From Oscillibacter valericigenes (GTDB lineage Bacteria > Bacillota > Clostridia > Oscillospirales > Oscillospiraceae): a DNA stretch of 64,000 bases. A program made the position numbers and the translations under genes. The notes beneath the pieces are model-generated. The model had not been told where the DNA came from. It saw only the letters and a program-made list of their open reading frames with translations, and did not search any database. The stretch covers positions 124,001-188,000 of the forward strand of contig NZ_JAFBIV010000003.1 of NCBI RefSeq assembly GCF_021531915.1, written 5' to 3'. This document shows, piece by piece, positions 5,361 to 57,330 of this stretch; positions within the stretch are counted from its first letter, which is position 1; every line of letters starts with the position of its first letter.

Positions 5361-5443
5361 GAGCCGCTCAAAGCCTTTAGCAGTTGAAAATGGGCTTGAA
5401 AACGCGCTTCAAACCTCTTTTCAAGTGCTAAATGGTTTGGCTC
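5361..5443 (+). promoter_or_regulatory. long imperfect hairpin in the pnp leader
   Basis: The 5' arm 5361-5390 pairs with the 3' arm 5418-5443 (for example CAAAGCCTTTAGCA with TGCTAAATGGTTTG, 12 of 14 pairs, flanked by GAGCC/GGCTC and TTGAAAA/TTTTCAA). A 27-base apex itself holds TTGAA/TTCAA. A stem of this length just upstream of pnp recalls the E. coli pnp leader, where RNase III cleavage allows autoregulation by PNPase. The structure is seen in the sequence; the mechanism is inferred. Confidence 0.6.
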
Positions 5444-5479
5444 CCATGGAGAAAAGATTCAACGAAAAGGAGACAAATC

Positions 5480-7630
5480 ATGTCAACCATTATCAAGCAG
5501 AGACAGTTCCCCGGCTACCACAAGTATGAGATGGAGCTGGCCGGCCGTCCCCTGACCCTGGAAGTGGGCAAGCTGGCTGAGCTGGCCAACGCCGCCGTCA
5601 TGGTGGGCTACGGCGACACCCGCGTGCTGGTGTGCGCCACCGCCGCTCCCCGTCCCCGGGACGGCATCGACTTCTTCCCCCTGAGCGTGGACTTTGAGGA
5701 GAAGATGTACTCCGTGGGCCGCATCCCCGGCAGCTTCAACCGCCGCGAGGGCCGCCCCGGTGAGAAGGGCATCCTGACCGCCCGTGTCATCGACCGCCCC
5801 ATCCGCCCCCTGTTCCCCTACGACTTCCGCAATGACGTCAGCATCATGGCCACCGTCATGAGCGTGGACCATGACTGCTCTCCCGAGGTGGCCGCCCTGA
5901 TCGGCACCTCCGCCGCCCTGGCCATCTCCGACATCCCCTGGAACGGCCCCGTGGGCGCCGTGAAGGTGGGCCTGGTGGACGGCAAGCTGGTCATCAACCC
6001 CGATTCCGAGATGCGCAAGGTCAGCGACCTGGACGTCACCGTGGTCTCCACCGGCAAGAAGGTGGTCATGATCGAGGCCGGCGCCAACGAGGTGGACAAC
6101 GACACCATGTTCAAGGCCATCCAGATGGCCCACGAGGAGAACCAGAAGCAGATCGCCCTCATCAACCAGATGGTCTCCGAGATCGGCAAGCCCAAGTTCG
6201 ACTATCCCCACGCCGCCTTTGACCAGGAGCTGTTCGACGATATCGTGGCCAACTTCATGGACGAGGCCAAGGCCGCCATGGACACCGATGACAAGAACGT
6301 CCGGGAGTCCCGCTGGAACGCCATGATCGAGAAGTGGCACGAGAAGTATCTGGACACCCATCCCGACATGGACCAGTACCTGGAGGAGATCACCTACAAG
6401 TTCCAGAAGAAGATCGTCAAGGCCTGGCTGCTGGAGGGCCACCGCGTGGACGGCCGTGCCAAGAATGAGATCCGCCCCCTGGCCGCCGAAGTGGGCGTGC
6501 TGCCCCGGGTCCACGGCTCCGGCCTGTTCACCCGCGGTCAGACTCAGGTCCTCTCCGTCGCTACCCTGGACACCCTGTCCGCCAACCAGAAGCTGGACAC
6601 CATCTGGGAAGAGACCGAGAAGCGCTATATGCACCACTACAACTTCCCCGGCTACTCCGTCGGCGAGGCCAAGCCCGCTCGCAGCCCCGGCCGCCGCGAG
6701 ATCGGTCACGGCGCCCTGGCCGAGCGTGCCCTGCTGCCCGTAATCCCCTCTGTGGAGGAGTTCCCCTATGCCATCCGCGTGGTGTCTGAGGTGGTTAGCT
6801 CCAACGGCTCCACCTCCCAGGGCTCCATCTGCGGCTCCACTCTGGCTCTGATGGACGCCGGCGTGCCCATCAAGGCCCCCGTGGCCGGCATCTCCTGCGG
6901 CCTGATCCAGGATGACGACGGCTCCTTCACCACCTTCATCGACATCCAGGGCGTGGAGGACTTCCACGGCGAGATGGACTTCAAGGTAGCCGGCACCAAG
7001 AAGGGCATCACCGCCATCCAGATGGACCTGAAGAACGACGGCCTGACCATGGAGATCATCCGGAACGCCCTGGACATCACCTACGACGCCCGTGTGCAGA
7101 TTCTGGACCAGATCATGCTGCCCTGCATCGCCGAGCCCCGTCCCGAGGTCAGCAAGTACGCTCCCAAGATGATCACCATGCATATCGATCCCGACAAGAT
7201 CCGGGACGTCATCGGCAAGGGCGGCTCCGTCATCCAGAAGATCGTGGCCGACACCGGCGCCAAGATCGACATCAACGACGACGGCTCCATCTTCATCGCC
7301 GCTCCCAACCCCGAGAGCTGCGACGCCGCCAAGAAGTGCATCGACGACATCGTCTTCGTGCCCGAGGTGGGTCAGCTGTACTACGGCCGCGTGGTGCGCC
7401 TGATGACCTTTGGCGCCTTCGTGGAGCTGGCTCCCGGCAAGGACGGCCTGGTGCACATCTCCAAGCTGGCCGACCACCGCATTGAGAAGGTGGAGGACGC
7501 CTGCAAGATCGGCGACATGATGTGGGTCAAGGTCACCGAGATCGACGAGAAGGGCCGCGTGAACCTGTCCCATAAGGACGCCATGAAGGAGATCGCCGCC
7601 AAGGAAGCCGCCGGCGAGCGCATTAAATAA
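5480..7630 (+). CDS. pnp: polyribonucleotide nucleotidyltransferase (PNPase)
   Basis: A 716-residue protein with two RNase PH-like domains separated by a helical domain, then a KH domain (VIGKGGSVIQKI near 580) and an S1 domain (YYGRVVRLMTFGAFVELAPGK near 634). It degrades RNA 3' to 5' phosphorolytically and can add tails, acting in mRNA turnover. ATG 5480 is preceded by AAAAGGAG seven to eight bases away and begins MSTIIKQRQFPGYHKYEM, the usual PNPase start; longer in-frame starts lie inside the leader hairpin. A long leader stem (5361-5443) and a strong terminator (7659-7686) bound it as its own unit. Confidence 0.98.
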   Translation: MSTIIKQRQFPGYHKYEMELAGRPLTLEVGKLAELANAAVMVGYGDTRVLVCATAAPRPRDGIDFFPLSVDFEEKMYSVGRIPGSFNRREGRPGEKGILTARVIDRPIRPLFPYDFRNDVSIMATVMSVDHDCSPEVAALIGTSAALAISDIPWNGPVGAVKVGLVDGKLVINPDSEMRKVSDLDVTVVSTGKKVVMIEAGANEVDNDTMFKAIQMAHEENQKQIALINQMVSEIGKPKFDYPHAAFDQELFDDIVANFMDEAKAAMDTDDKNVRESRWNAMIEKWHEKYLDTHPDMDQYLEEITYKFQKKIVKAWLLEGHRVDGRAKNEIRPLAAEVGVLPRVHGSGLFTRGQTQVLSVATLDTLSANQKLDTIWEETEKRYMHHYNFPGYSVGEAKPARSPGRREIGHGALAERALLPVIPSVEEFPYAIRVVSEVVSSNGSTSQGSICGSTLALMDAGVPIKAPVAGISCGLIQDDDGSFTTFIDIQGVEDFHGEMDFKVAGTKKGITAIQMDLKNDGLTMEIIRNALDITYDARVQILDQIMLPCIAEPRPEVSKYAPKMITMHIDPDKIRDVIGKGGSVIQKIVADTGAKIDINDDGSIFIAAPNPESCDAAKKCIDDIVFVPEVGQLYYGRVVRLMTFGAFVELAPGKDGLVHISKLADHRIEKVEDACKIGDMMWVKVTEIDEKGRVNLSHKDAMKEIAAKEAAGERIK

Positions 7631-7691: not shown

Positions 7692-8010
7692 TACAGGCCA
7701 TTGGCGGGAACCATGCGATAACCACCACCGAAAGCCGCACCCAGACCACCAAATGCGGGAAAGCACCATCTCTGTTCCCCCAAGGGAATAGCGCACCCGG
7801 TACAGGCCCTTAAGTTTGCACCGCAACGATCACGATGACCCCCGTATTTGCGGTCAACTTGACACAGCCGTGTCAAGTTGATCCGCCCAGCGTCTTTCTT
7901 TTCCACCGCTGCGGCGGCGACTTTTCTTTCGGCAAGACGAAAGAAAAGTGGGGGCCGCATTCCCGCCCGGCAAAGCCGGGCATCCCCCGTCCCCCGCCCC
8001 GTGGGCGGAC
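7692..8010 (+). repeat. dispersed structured repeat, family A, copy 1
   Basis: This fills most of the 404-base gap between pnp and mnmE. The 5' block (CCGAAAGCCGCACCCA ... AAATGCGGG ... CACCATCTCTGTTCCCC ... GCGCACCCGG) matches copies at 21176 and 56998. The 3' half is a row of hairpins: 7854-7865/7870-7881 (TCAACTTGACAC arms, AGCC loop), 7920-7931/7938-7949 (12 bp, GCAAGA loop) and 7965-7971/7975-7981 (7 bp, AAA loop). It ends about 25 bases before mnmE. No reading frame in it looks like a protein. It may be transcribed as a leader of mnmE. Confidence 0.8.
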
Positions 8011-8034: not shown

Positions 8035-9417
8035 ATGGACATCATCGCCGCCATCGCCACCGGCGGGAACCCCACCGCCATCGGCATCGTCCGGGTATCC
8101 GGCGAGGGCTGTTTCGCCCTCTGCGATAAGGTCTTCCGCGCCCTGAACGGCAAAGCGTTTTCCGCCCAAGAGCCCCGGAAGATGATCTACGGCGACATGC
8201 TGGACGCCGAAGGCCGCGTTATTGACCGGGGCCTGGCCATCCGGTTCCCCGGCCCCCGCAGCTACACCGGCGAGGACTCCGCCGAGTTCCACTGCCACGG
8301 CTCTCCCGTGGTGCTGCGGGAGCTTTTGAGCGCCCTCTTTGCCGCCGGAGCCCGGCAGGCCAAGGCAGGAGAATTCACCCGCCGTGCCTTTTTGAACGGG
8401 CAGCTGGACCTGACCCAGGCAGAGGCCGTCATCGACCTCATTGACGCGGAGACTGCCTCCGCTGCCCGGAACGCCGCCGCCCAGCTGGACGGCGGTCTGC
8501 GCCGGATGCTGGAGCCCATTCAGGACGCCCTGCTGGAGATCGCCTCGCGGTTCTACGCCGTGGTGGACTACCCCGACGAGGACATCGAGGACATCCAGCC
8601 GGAACAGGTGACGGAAGCCCTGGACACCGCTGACCGCCAGCTCACCTCCCTGCTGGCCACCTGCCAGCGGGGCAAGGTGCTGAAGTCCGGCGTCCGGACC
8701 GCCATTGTGGGACGGCCCAACGCCGGCAAGTCCTCCCTGCTCAACGCCCTGGTAGGGTATGAACGGGCCATCGTCACCGACATTCCCGGCACCACCCGGG
8801 ACACGGTGGAGGACACCGCCGTGGTGCGGGATGTGCTGCTGCGGCTGGTGGATACCGCCGGCATCCACGACACCGCCGACACCGTGGAGCGGCTGGGCGT
8901 GGAGCGCAGCCGGAGGGCCGTAGAGCAGGCCGACCTGGTGATCGTCGTGGTGGATGGCCTGACCGGCCCCACGGAAGCAGACCGGGAGATCCTGGAGCTG
9001 GCCAGCCGCGCACCCCATTGGATTCTTGGCCTCAGCAAGTCCGACCTGCTTCCCGACGGCTTCTGCCAGATCCTGAAGCGGCCCAAGGGGCTGCGGGGAC
9101 CGGATGAATGCCTGTCCTTCAGCTCTGTGGCTCCCGGTGGACTGCGCCTTCTGGAGGACGCCATCGCAGAGCTGTACCCCGCAGGCTCCCCCTCCCAGAC
9201 CGGAAGCCTTTTGACCGACCAGCGGCAGGAGGAAGCCGCCAGCCGGGCCCGGGACGCCGTCCGCCGGGCCAAAGCTGCCCTGGAGGGCGGTCTGACCCCC
9301 GACGCGGTGCTGACTGACGCAGAGGAGGCCCTGGAGGCCCTGGGTGAACTGACAGGCCGCACCGCCCGGGAGGAGATCATCTCCCGCATCTTTGAACGGT
9401 TCTGTGTCGGAAAATGA
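8035..9417 (+). CDS. mnmE: tRNA uridine-5-carboxymethylaminomethyl modification GTPase MnmE
   Basis: The 460-residue protein has the N-terminal folate-binding domain (IIAAIATGGNPTAIGIVRVSG), a helical domain with an inserted G domain (G1 GRPNAGKS near 226, switch region IPGTTRDT, G3 DTAGIHDT) and the C-terminal CVGK catalytic cysteine (Cys457). With MnmG it modifies the wobble uridine of tRNAs reading two-box codons. The G4 motif reads SKSD near 335 instead of the usual NKxD. ATG 8035 follows AAGGAG and gives the normal length. In many Firmicutes mnmE sits next to jag and mnmG; here both neighbours are absent and the gene lies 41 kb from jag. Confidence 0.97.
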   Translation: MDIIAAIATGGNPTAIGIVRVSGEGCFALCDKVFRALNGKAFSAQEPRKMIYGDMLDAEGRVIDRGLAIRFPGPRSYTGEDSAEFHCHGSPVVLRELLSALFAAGARQAKAGEFTRRAFLNGQLDLTQAEAVIDLIDAETASAARNAAAQLDGGLRRMLEPIQDALLEIASRFYAVVDYPDEDIEDIQPEQVTEALDTADRQLTSLLATCQRGKVLKSGVRTAIVGRPNAGKSSLLNALVGYERAIVTDIPGTTRDTVEDTAVVRDVLLRLVDTAGIHDTADTVERLGVERSRRAVEQADLVIVVVDGLTGPTEADREILELASRAPHWILGLSKSDLLPDGFCQILKRPKGLRGPDECLSFSSVAPGGLRLLEDAIAELYPAGSPSQTGSLLTDQRQEEAASRARDAVRRAKAALEGGLTPDAVLTDAEEALEALGELTGRTAREEIISRIFERFCVGK

Positions 9418-21175: not shown

Positions 21176-21460
21176 CAGGGCAGCGGCAGCAGAAAGAGAA
21201 GCTGAGGCCATTCGATCAGCGCCCCGAAAGCCGCACCCAGCTACCAACTGCGGGGAAGCACCATCTCTGTTCCCCAGGAGTCCAGCGCACCCGGTACCAG
21301 CCTGCAAGTCTGCACTGCAACGATCACGACGACTCCGGTTCTTCTCTTTTGGACCGCCCAGCGGCCCGTTTTCTCTTCTTCGCAAGAAGAGAAAATGGGG
21401 GGGGGGGGCTGGCCCCGCGGCGGAGCCGCACGTCCCCGCGCCGTCCGCAGACGGCGCCTT
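21176..21460 (+). repeat. dispersed structured repeat, family A, copy 2
   Basis: This fills the 401-base gap before dut. The 5' block (AGCGGCAGCAGAAAGAGAAGC ... CCGAAAGCCGCACCCA ... AAGCACCATCTCTGTTCCCC ... GCGCACCCGGTACCAG) aligns with the other two copies. Hairpins: 21369-21380/21384-21395 (12 bp, CGC loop), 21417-21421/21425-21429 and 21438-21445/21450-21457 (GCGCCGTC arms). This copy lacks the TCAACTTGACAC hairpin of the other two, and carries 12 consecutive G at 21397-21408. Confidence 0.78.
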
Positions 21461-21477
21461 CGCCTAACTACGATTTG

Positions 21478-21483
21478 TATAAT
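21478..21483 (+). promoter_or_regulatory. -10 element of the dut promoter
   Basis: A perfect TATAAT lies 43 bases before dut, preceded by the last hairpin of repeat A copy 2; any -35 would fall within the repeat's 3' end. This hints that the repeat contributes to dut expression. Confidence 0.5.
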
Positions 21484-48689: not shown

Positions 48690-48924
48690 ACGTAAAAAAC
48701 GCCCTGAGCCGGTTTTCGGCTCAGGGCGAATCAAAATCGATCCGTGGTTCCACCTGAATTCGTATCTGGCTGATACGCACTCTGTCCCGGTAACGGCGGG
48801 GGCCGGCGGAGCATTTCCGCTCCGCTGCTCAAGGGTGCCTTCTCCCCCTTCCCGACTGAGGCTTTCACCAACCGCCTCTTCTCTGAACCCGGGTGCCGGG
48901 GATACTGTTCCCTGTCAACACAGT
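48690..48924 (-). promoter_or_regulatory. T-box leader of glyS
   Basis: Read on the minus strand: AGAGAAGAGGCGGTTGGTGAAA-type stem I (near 48885), a probable GGC glycine specifier (48839-48837) in GAAGGCAC, the T-box CAGGTGGAACCACGG (48756-48742) and a terminator stem CGCCCTGAGCC / GGCTCAGGGCG (48728-48718/48710-48700) followed by TTTTTTAC. Uncharged tRNA-Gly would stabilise the antiterminator and allow glyS expression. Confidence 0.92.
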
Positions 48925-48930
48925 GTCCAC

Positions 48931-49408: not shown

Positions 49409-49422
49409 CTCTTGTTCCAATC

Positions 49423-49541
49423 ATTTTCGCCGTGGCATGTACGTGGCGAAAATACCCCGACCTGTGCGCCCTTGGGGCGCACGCACCAGTGACCGACGTC
49501 ACTGGTGGTAGGGGATTCTCAAGGGGGAGCCTGCTCCCCCT
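49423..49541. repeat. four-hairpin repeat, family B, copy 1
   Basis: Four hairpins in a row: ATTTTCGCC/GGCGAAAAT (49423-49431/49445-49453), GTGCGCCC/GGGCGCAC (49464-49471/49475-49482), CACCAGTGAC/GTCACTGGTG (49484-49493/49498-49507) and GGGGGAGC/GCTCCCCC (49523-49530/49533-49540). It sits in the 3' untranslated part of the jag transcript. A second copy is at 51647. Confidence 0.82.
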
Positions 49542-51536: not shown

Positions 51537-51646
51537 AAACGTTTCCTCCAAATAAAGATGGGGCCGAGGTAACAAAGGAAGGGGGCTAGGGGAAACCTCT
51601 TGTTTCCCCAGTTCTTTTGCCAAAGGCAAAAGAAGCAAATGAAATC

Positions 51647-51763
51647 ATTTTCGCCGCGACATGTGCGTGGCGAAAATACCTCGACCCAAGCGCCTTGGGC
51701 GCGCTCACCAGTGACCGACGTCACTGGTGGTGGGGGAGCTCGAGGGGGAGCCTGCTCCCCTTC
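51647..51763. repeat. four-hairpin repeat, family B, copy 2
   Basis: Same order of hairpins as copy 1: ATTTTCGCC/GGCGAAAAT (51647-51655/51669-51677), GCGCC/GGCGC (51690-51694/51698-51702), CACCAGTGAC/GTCACTGGTG (51706-51715/51720-51729) and GGGGAGC/GCTCCCC (51745-51751/51754-51760). It fills most of the 230-base gap between yidD and yidC; the rest of that gap also holds TTTTGCC/GGCAAAA (about 51615-51631). Confidence 0.82.
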
Positions 51764-56997: not shown

Positions 56998-57330
56998 CGG
57001 GGACAGGGCAGCGGCAGCGGAAAGAGAAGCAGCGGCCATTCGATGACCACTACCGAAAGCCGCACCCACGCCATCAAATGCGGAGACGTACTTTCTCTGT
57101 TCCCCAAAGACTCAAGCGCACCCGGCAGGGGACTATCAAATTACGTAAGCACCGGCTACGACAACCTTCGCGTTTGCGGTCAACTTGACACTTCCGTGTC
57201 AAGTTGAGCCGCCGAAAGCGCCTTTTTCTTCCACCGGGCGCGGCGCATTCTTTTTCGGCAAGACGAAAAAGAATGAGGGGCGCCTTTCAGCGCCGCAAAG
57301 CGGCGCATCCCCCCGTCCCCTATAAGAGGA
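56998..57330 (+). repeat. dispersed structured repeat, family A, copy 3
   Basis: This fills most of the 433-base gap between recF and the PH-domain gene. The 5' block (CAGCGGCAGCGGAAAGAGAAGC, CCGAAAGCCGCACCCA, AAATGCGGA, TCTCTGTTCCCC, GCGCACCCGG) matches copies 1 and 2. Hairpins: 57180-57191/57196-57207 (TCAACTTGACAC arms, TTCC loop), 57246-57257/57264-57275 (12 bp, GCAAGA loop) and 57290-57296/57300-57306 (7 bp, AAA loop). The arms differ from copy 1 at several positions, each matched by a change in the partner arm. Confidence 0.8.

Follow-up and report, generated by a model that had tools for sequence, protein, structure and literature searches.

In the stretch of 64,000 nucleotides analysed here (the window), three intergenic sites carry copies of a dispersed, mobile-looking element, REP/BIME/MITE-like in character, whose sequences suggest that its conserved core is probably an intrastrand triple helix. 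Copies of the element have in common a pairing layout in which three strands and an outer stem covary; they are present or absent at orthologous sites, exchange modules with one another, and optionally carry cargo. It is very likely that the triplex and outer stem, as one pattern, are under selection or are copied faithfully together, and we are inclined to regard this pattern as the core of a mobile-like dispersed element. From 5' to 3' a copy consists of a conserved 5' block of ~140 bases, an exchangeable hairpin (hairpin-1, of which at least four unrelated kinds occur among the copies), a covarying hairpin, and a row of short GC hairpins. The consensus fold of the + strand gave no significant structure for the 5' block. 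The features of the three window copies are listed here, with (1), (2) and (3) denoting the candidate third strand, the pyrimidine arm and the purine arm.

7692-8010, + strand: element copy 1 (half unit), between an upstream ORF at 5432-7630 and an ORF with its ATG at 8035
7711-7849, + strand: copy 1, conserved 5' block, CCGAAAGC...AGCGCACCCGG...GCAACGATCACG
7850-7886, + strand: copy 1, exchangeable hairpin-1, TCAACTTGACAC/GTGTCAAGTTGA; other copies have different hairpins here
7894-7903, + strand: copy 1, candidate third strand (1), CTTTCTTTTC, parallel-complementary to 7939-7948
7910-7915, + strand: copy 1, outer stem 5' strand, TGCGGC
7920-7931, + strand: copy 1, hairpin 5' (pyrimidine) arm (2), ACTTTTCTTTCG
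7938-7949, + strand: copy 1, hairpin 3' (purine) arm (3), CGAAAGAAAAGT, with T7949 as the junction base
7954-7959, + strand: copy 1, outer stem 3' strand, GCCGCA
7965-7981, + strand: copy 1, short AAA-loop hairpin of the 3' hairpin row, GCCCGGC-AAA-GCCGGGC
21176-21460, + strand: element copy 2 (half unit), without hairpin-1; orthologous site empty in at least 5 related genomes
21339-21350, + strand: copy 2, candidate third strand, TTCTTCTCTTTT; G21351 lies opposite the junction T21396
21358-21362, + strand: copy 2, outer stem 5' strand, CCAGC
21369-21380, + strand: copy 2, hairpin pyrimidine arm, TTTTCTCTTCTT
21384-21395, + strand: copy 2, hairpin purine arm, AAGAAGAGAAAA
21408-21412, + strand: copy 2, outer stem 3' strand, GCTGG
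56998-57330, + strand: element copy 3 (half unit)
57222-57230, + strand: copy 3, candidate third strand, CTTTTTCTT
57237-57241, + strand: copy 3, outer stem 5' strand, GGCGC
57246-57257, + strand: copy 3, hairpin pyrimidine arm, CATTCTTTTTCG
57264-57275, + strand: copy 3, hairpin purine arm, CGAAAAAGAATG
57280-57284, + strand: copy 3, outer stem 3' strand, GCGCC

The three elements lie where an earlier note on this DNA had located them, and the 5' block is common to all of them. The paired changes described there between copies 1 and 3 are also found, both in the 12-bp hairpin (ACTTTTCTTTCG/CGAAAGAAAAGT versus CATTCTTTTTCG/CGAAAAAGAATG) and in the AAA-loop hairpin (GCCCGGC/GCCGGGC versus GCGCCGC/GCGGCGC), as is the hairpin of different sequence in copy 2 (TTTTCTCTTCTT/AAGAAGAGAAAA). 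The note read these changes as compensation: the structure is indeed maintained, but since the copies are mosaics with modules swapped between them, part of this compensation represents module exchange rather than stepwise paired mutation. The hairpins had thus been recognized, but not what is most important in the element, a third strand and an outer stem that would make a triple helix.

This feature consists of a mirror image (1) of the pyrimidine arm (2), located upstream of it in all three copies at a spacing of 17-18 bases (CTTTCTTTTC for CTTTTCTTTC in copy 1, TTCTTCTCTTTT for TTTTCTCTTCTT in copy 2, CTTTTTCTT for TTCTTTTTC in copy 3). Because (1) is the mirror image of (2), it is parallel-complementary to the purine arm (3); antiparallel pairing between the two is impossible, while parallel Hoogsteen pairing is possible. 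By its sequence the mirror tract has the signature of a pyrimidine-motif triple helix, with predicted T.A-T and C+.G-C triplets. All three tracts are on one strand and would provide 9-15 base triplets, where at least 8 are expected of an intrastrand triplex. The hairpin/mirror pattern is more than a chance occurrence in the window: in a blind scan of both strands of the 64 kb for a Y-tract with an upstream mirror image and a downstream reverse complement of at least 9 nt, the only matches were the three elements, with 0 matches in 100 dinucleotide shuffles. In the structure that we propose, the order from 5' to 3' would be pyrimidine third strand (1), linker with one side of the outer stem, arm (2), loop, arm (3), and the strand that completes the outer stem. 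A Watson-Crick hairpin would be formed by arms (2) and (3), with strand (1) running parallel to (3) in its major groove and the outer stem holding the base of the triplex.

We have studied the covariation of these tracts in more than 100 loci from the genus of the window and from other genera, which yielded 87 distinct modules, 85 of them with asymmetric purine tracts. Among the latter, 64 modules have upstream a parallel complement of the purine arm over its full length, compared with 4 in which arm (2) is directly copied over its full length. When the two kinds of run are compared within a module, the parallel one is longer in 74 modules, equal in 10 and shorter in 1. The tracts are low in complexity, and the generic share of matches is given by a swap null in which the upstream regions were exchanged between modules (300 tries): full matches numbered 9.4 of 85 on average, and at most 16. 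At the level of distinct asymmetric tracts, 39 of 51 have a full match, with third-strand matches extending up to 13-15 nt; a separate parse recognized at least 9 consecutive triplets from the base in 103 of 118 modules, and up to 15. Since the copies are related and exchange modules, these counts do not represent independent events, and the argument rests on the number of distinct sequence classes and on the other genera, not on the raw counts. The purine arm of one module (L202-) is interrupted by a T, and at exactly that place a G is found in the third strand; in triplexes of the pyrimidine motif, G opposite a T-A pair (the G.T-A triplet) is the recognized exception. Exceptions that break the triplex or the outer stem are L178-, L166 and L005-, and decayed copies also exist. 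In the L166 pair (1504-1567 on the - strand, 1918-1982 on the + strand) the third strands are mismatched and each fits the purine arm of its partner, a pattern suggestive of an inversion across the CCGTGCACGG palindrome that both share; these exchanged third strands indicate that parts of the element recombine. L178- and L005- are hybrid in the same way.

A second, outer stem also covaries. It is formed by bases of the linker with bases immediately following the purine arm and its G-run, and its sequence, as read from per-copy alignment, is TGCGGC:GCCGCA in copy 1, CCAGC:GCTGG in copy 2 and GGCGC:GCGCC in copy 3, and TGCAC:GTGCA, TGAAC:GTTCA, TCCAC:GTGGA or CGCAC:GTGCG elsewhere in the genus, with TGCGG:CCGCA and TCCGG:CCGGA in further copies. 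Wobbles in the outer stem are few, and include one A.C. Minimum-energy RNA folds of copies 1 and 3 enclose the inner hairpin with a stem at or near the place of the outer stem; the fold of copy 2 retains the hairpin with the outer part paired differently. The RNA folding z-scores are in the range -2.3 to -3.4. Immediately below the hairpin, 49 distinct modules have a G.T pair and none has A.C, and the third strand usually ends in G (sometimes C) opposite the conserved junction T, relative to which the register of the upstream tract is fixed. Because G.T never changes to A.C at this position, and because the third strands are T-rich with isolated C, the data favour folding of the strand that carries (1)-(2)-(3), by the pyrimidine motif; the geometry would also permit a purine motif on the opposite DNA strand. 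As a separate observation, in several copies the bases 5' of the third strand could pair with the hairpin loop (AACAT with the loop GATGTT in L009+/L019+, AGCGCC with GGCGC in L008+, AGCG with CGCT in L012+), a pairing that does not hold for copies with the GCAAGA loop; where present, it would pin the third strand at the apex as well.

A search of the genome that contains the window gave dozens of matches. The search of related genomes with a covariance model, which the earlier note had proposed, recovered ~37 copies in the genome of the window and showed the element to be present in 63 of 86 genomes of the genus, with up to 61 copies each; between species the copy number ranges from 0 to 61. 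In the family, the model identified the element in 13 further genomes of other genera, for a total of 11 of 106 genera including that of the window, and no match was found, at a stricter cut-off, in 244 other genomes sampled across the order. A degenerate pattern run over all GTDB genomes returned mostly unrelated matches and two true ones (L045, L078). In distant genera the layout is kept with little sequence in common, as can be seen in the following modules.

L325, + strand: third strand TTTTCTTTTG next to AAAAGAAAAT, outer stem GCGAAACCC:GGGTTTCGC
L331, - strand: third strand TTTTTCTTTG next to AAAAAGAAAT, outer stem TGCGGACC:GGTCCGCA
L322: third strand CCTTTCTTTG next to GGAAAGAAAT, outer stem TCCACC:GGTGGA
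L314, + strand: 13-14 triplets, outer stem TCAAC:GTTGA

The suggestion that selection or recombination keeps the structure is therefore strongly supported, by covariation across genera with unrelated sequences. The earlier note knew of no named family with these features, and a comparison with Rfam gave no family at gathering score for the element, only weak chance matches below threshold, and a T-box leader elsewhere in the window (48719-48927, - strand, RF00230, 115.7 bits). A phage or plasmid origin was considered and rejected, as there was no match in phage or plasmid records; the one exact match in viral contigs is a perfect module (TTTTTCTCTTTTGG...AAAAAGAGAAAAT, L304 6607-6690) near the end of an IMG/VR contig, whose sequence is likely chromosomal.

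Neighbouring modules are arranged head-to-head in 52 of 57 pairs, 280-1400 bases apart, and thus provide the terminal inverted repeats that are a feature of MITEs. In the usual unit two ends point away from each other on either side of central inverted 5' blocks, and single ends, such as those in the window, represent half units. The observation that the copies point in the same direction as the downstream gene is correct for the window, but does not extend to the whole genome: there, a gene start lies ahead of 13 of the 17 solo copies and a gene end ahead of the other 4, and another ten units are arranged head-to-head; 9 of these 10 pairs lie between co-directional genes, mostly 31-70 bases past the stop codon of the upstream gene. 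An XRE-type repressor gene is present in the interior of 6 of 46 pairs, in five cases together with a small divergent gene of DUF6809 type, and other pairs contain other small genes. Cassettes flanked by head-to-head triplex ends (L207, L209, L205, L206, L188, L193, L159, L177) contain an XRE or ribbon-helix-like regulator, often with a divergent DUF6809-like protein of ~80 aa, and their proteins are very different between units. A literature search, in which subscription journals were scarcely covered, found nothing on DUF6809 or on the repeat. Across genera (for example in L314, L159, L015), AGCGGCAGCGGAAA or close variants of it form an inverted pair at the centre of the units, which in L159 encloses the XRE gene; this motif may be a site of recombination or cargo entry. 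Many copies (for example L003-, L012+, L010-) have at their outer 3' end a short palindrome with a sequence of its own (ATACCTGTCAGGTAT, GTATCCCTTAGGGATAC, GTAAGCGGCCGCTTAC), which could be the trace of fold-back copying at the insertion end.

Comparison of orthologous sites between relatives, also proposed earlier, reveals both empty and filled sites. In G062, G073, G077, G064 and G025 the flanks of the copy 2 site align and the element is missing; in G061, G095, G018, G004 and G013 this site has a large insertion. An ssnA-like locus is empty in the genome of the window and in G064, and filled in G018, G061 and G062. Two relatives have an element between the same genes as copy 1, with modules that are different but self-consistent, and other relatives have a different gene order and no element. 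No target-site duplication or precise boundary was found at the ssnA-like and copy 2 loci, whose flanks are ~80-90% identical. Of the structured RNA, mobile DNA element and protein-binding platform offered by the earlier note, mobile-like behaviour is supported by the empty and filled orthologous sites, the head-to-head arrangement of the units and the genes that they carry. The search for transposases covered the Y1 family (PF01797), which is absent from the copy-rich genomes G000, G018, G061, G020, G102 and G006; a Y1/REP transposase was rejected as the mobiliser, because its presence does not follow the copies of the element. The window also contains two copies of a second dispersed repeat family (49419-49515 and 51643-51737, AATCATTTTCGCCGYG..CGTGGCGAAAATAC plus CACCAGTGACCGACGTCACTGGTG), and related repeats are found in G025 (L270) and G073 (L271) at the ssnA-like intergenic site, which in other species holds the triplex element.

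These results can be interpreted in other ways. According to one explanation, which we judge rather unlikely, the element is a cis-acting structured RNA, either the leader of the downstream gene or the 3' end of a small RNA, in which the triplex blocks exonucleases or controls expression. This explanation would account for the occurrence of G.T and never A.C below the hairpin, which suits a G-U pair in RNA of the + strand, for the U-rich third strands with isolated C, which suit RNA pyrimidine triplexes (pyrimidine-type triplexes occur in RNA, purine-type ones do not; PMC4666352), for the 13 of 17 solo copies that face a gene start, and for the folding z-scores. It is challenged by the arrangement of the pairs, in which one module is antisense to its neighbour and which lie in 9 of 10 cases between co-directional genes, by the four solo copies facing gene ends, and by the outer-stem wobbles, which are few and include an A.C; furthermore, no sigma-70-like promoter was found in copy 1, and the TATAAT-like box near copy 2 (21476-21481) is downstream of it, so that a promoter there would not transcribe the element. 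According to another explanation, in our judgement quite improbable, the units are a protein-binding or nucleoid/insulator platform (e.g. gyrase, IHF-like, terminator-associated), with hairpins that would be shaped by cruciform binding and the mirror tract as part of a DNA H-form site. The intergenic location of the units, about 30-70 nt past stop codons, the strand symmetry of the pairs, and the occupation of the same intergenic site by different repeat families in different species would all be consistent with such a platform; yet the sequence of triplex and outer stem is fully replaceable while the pairing stays, which is unusual for sequence-specific binding, and the copy number varies from 0 to 61 between species.

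It could also be argued that there is no triple helix, that only the hairpin matters, and that the upstream pyrimidine tract is a low-complexity by-product of slippage, duplication or alternative pairing. The tracts are T-rich with few C, and a swapped upstream region also fully matches in about 11% of the modules; duplication, however, predicts direct copies, and full direct copies number 4 as against 64 mirror copies, a ratio on which a direct-repeat origin of the upstream tract was rejected. Antiparallel pairing with the purine arm is impossible for mirror copies, the upstream tract keeps a fixed register to the junction T, and the pattern recurs in other genera, such that we give this explanation hardly any credence. 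Returning to a mobile-like element with a triplex core, the strand with (1)-(2)-(3), be it single-stranded DNA or a transcript, would form the triplex, which would serve the copying, recombination or protection of the element itself, the mover presumably being a host or trans-acting enzyme.

The closest known kind to this element is represented by the BoxC/PIT/TM-ECO intrastrand triplex repeats of E. coli and relatives, for which four classes are listed in a paper that also summarises Hoyne et al. 2000 (PMC4666352). They too are multi-copy intergenic bacterial repeats, able to fold into a triplex within one strand and with numbers that vary sharply between close relatives. TM-ECO is a G/C-rich class II triplex of the purine motif, with short loops and the consensus CCCTCNCCC-N3-6-GGGNGAGGG-N3-GGGNGAGGG (PMC4666352); the element, in contrast, has A/T-rich tracts of different sequence, which we read as class IV of the pyrimidine motif, and does not fit this consensus. 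It also has a linker of 17-18 nt with an outer stem, beyond the loops of 1-6 nt (ITxF) or 0-10 nt (Hoyne) allowed in published scans, which would therefore miss it. Finally, its sequence covaries on three strands, whereas PIT repeats are fixed in sequence and thus cannot show covariation; whether intrastrand triplexes form and matter in vivo has been argued since the discovery of PIT repeats.

REP/BIME sequences, and REPINs with their RAYT transposases, resemble the element as dispersed, mosaic, intergenic palindromes that are often paired and inverted, but the units here are far longer (halves of ~300 bp) and no Y1 transposase follows their presence. MITEs are likewise non-coding units of small size and high copy number, with inverted repeats, that are found at some orthologous sites and not at others; here no target duplication and, in the search for the Y1 family, no cognate transposase was found, and a triplex core is not a MITE feature. 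In the plant transposon Evade a triple helix in the transcript is reported to aid mobilisation (PMC12501189), which by analogy, and not by homology, makes a role of the triplex in mobilisation plausible. ENE/MALAT1-type RNA triple helices, which include those of plant transposons (PMC12501189), also have a U-rich strand that occupies the major groove of an A-rich helix; an ENE, however, combines a U-rich internal loop with a poly(A) tail, while in the bacterial element a 5' tract would be folded onto its own hairpin. H-DNA mirror repeats have similar mirror-symmetric pyrimidine tracts, but in the element the purine arm is on the same strand, so that one strand supplies all three tracts.

More tentatively, and with somewhat more doubt than conviction, we suggest from these patterns a previously undescribed mobile bacterial family, in which the selected feature would be a long natural triple helix of 9-16 triplets, clamped by an outer stem and acting as the structured substrate, RNA or single-stranded DNA, of a mobilising enzyme, and which can carry small regulator genes. 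If this is true, it would constitute rare evolutionary evidence for the selection of a natural three-stranded structure in bacteria: as three strands change together across dozens of variants and several genera, evolution itself would report the third strand. The formation and importance of bacterial intrastrand triplexes in vivo would become testable with natural variants, and the combination of mirror tract, linker stem and hairpin would provide a new search pattern, missed by earlier triplex scans. The element would also point to an undescribed system of mobilisation or maintenance in abundant Clostridia.
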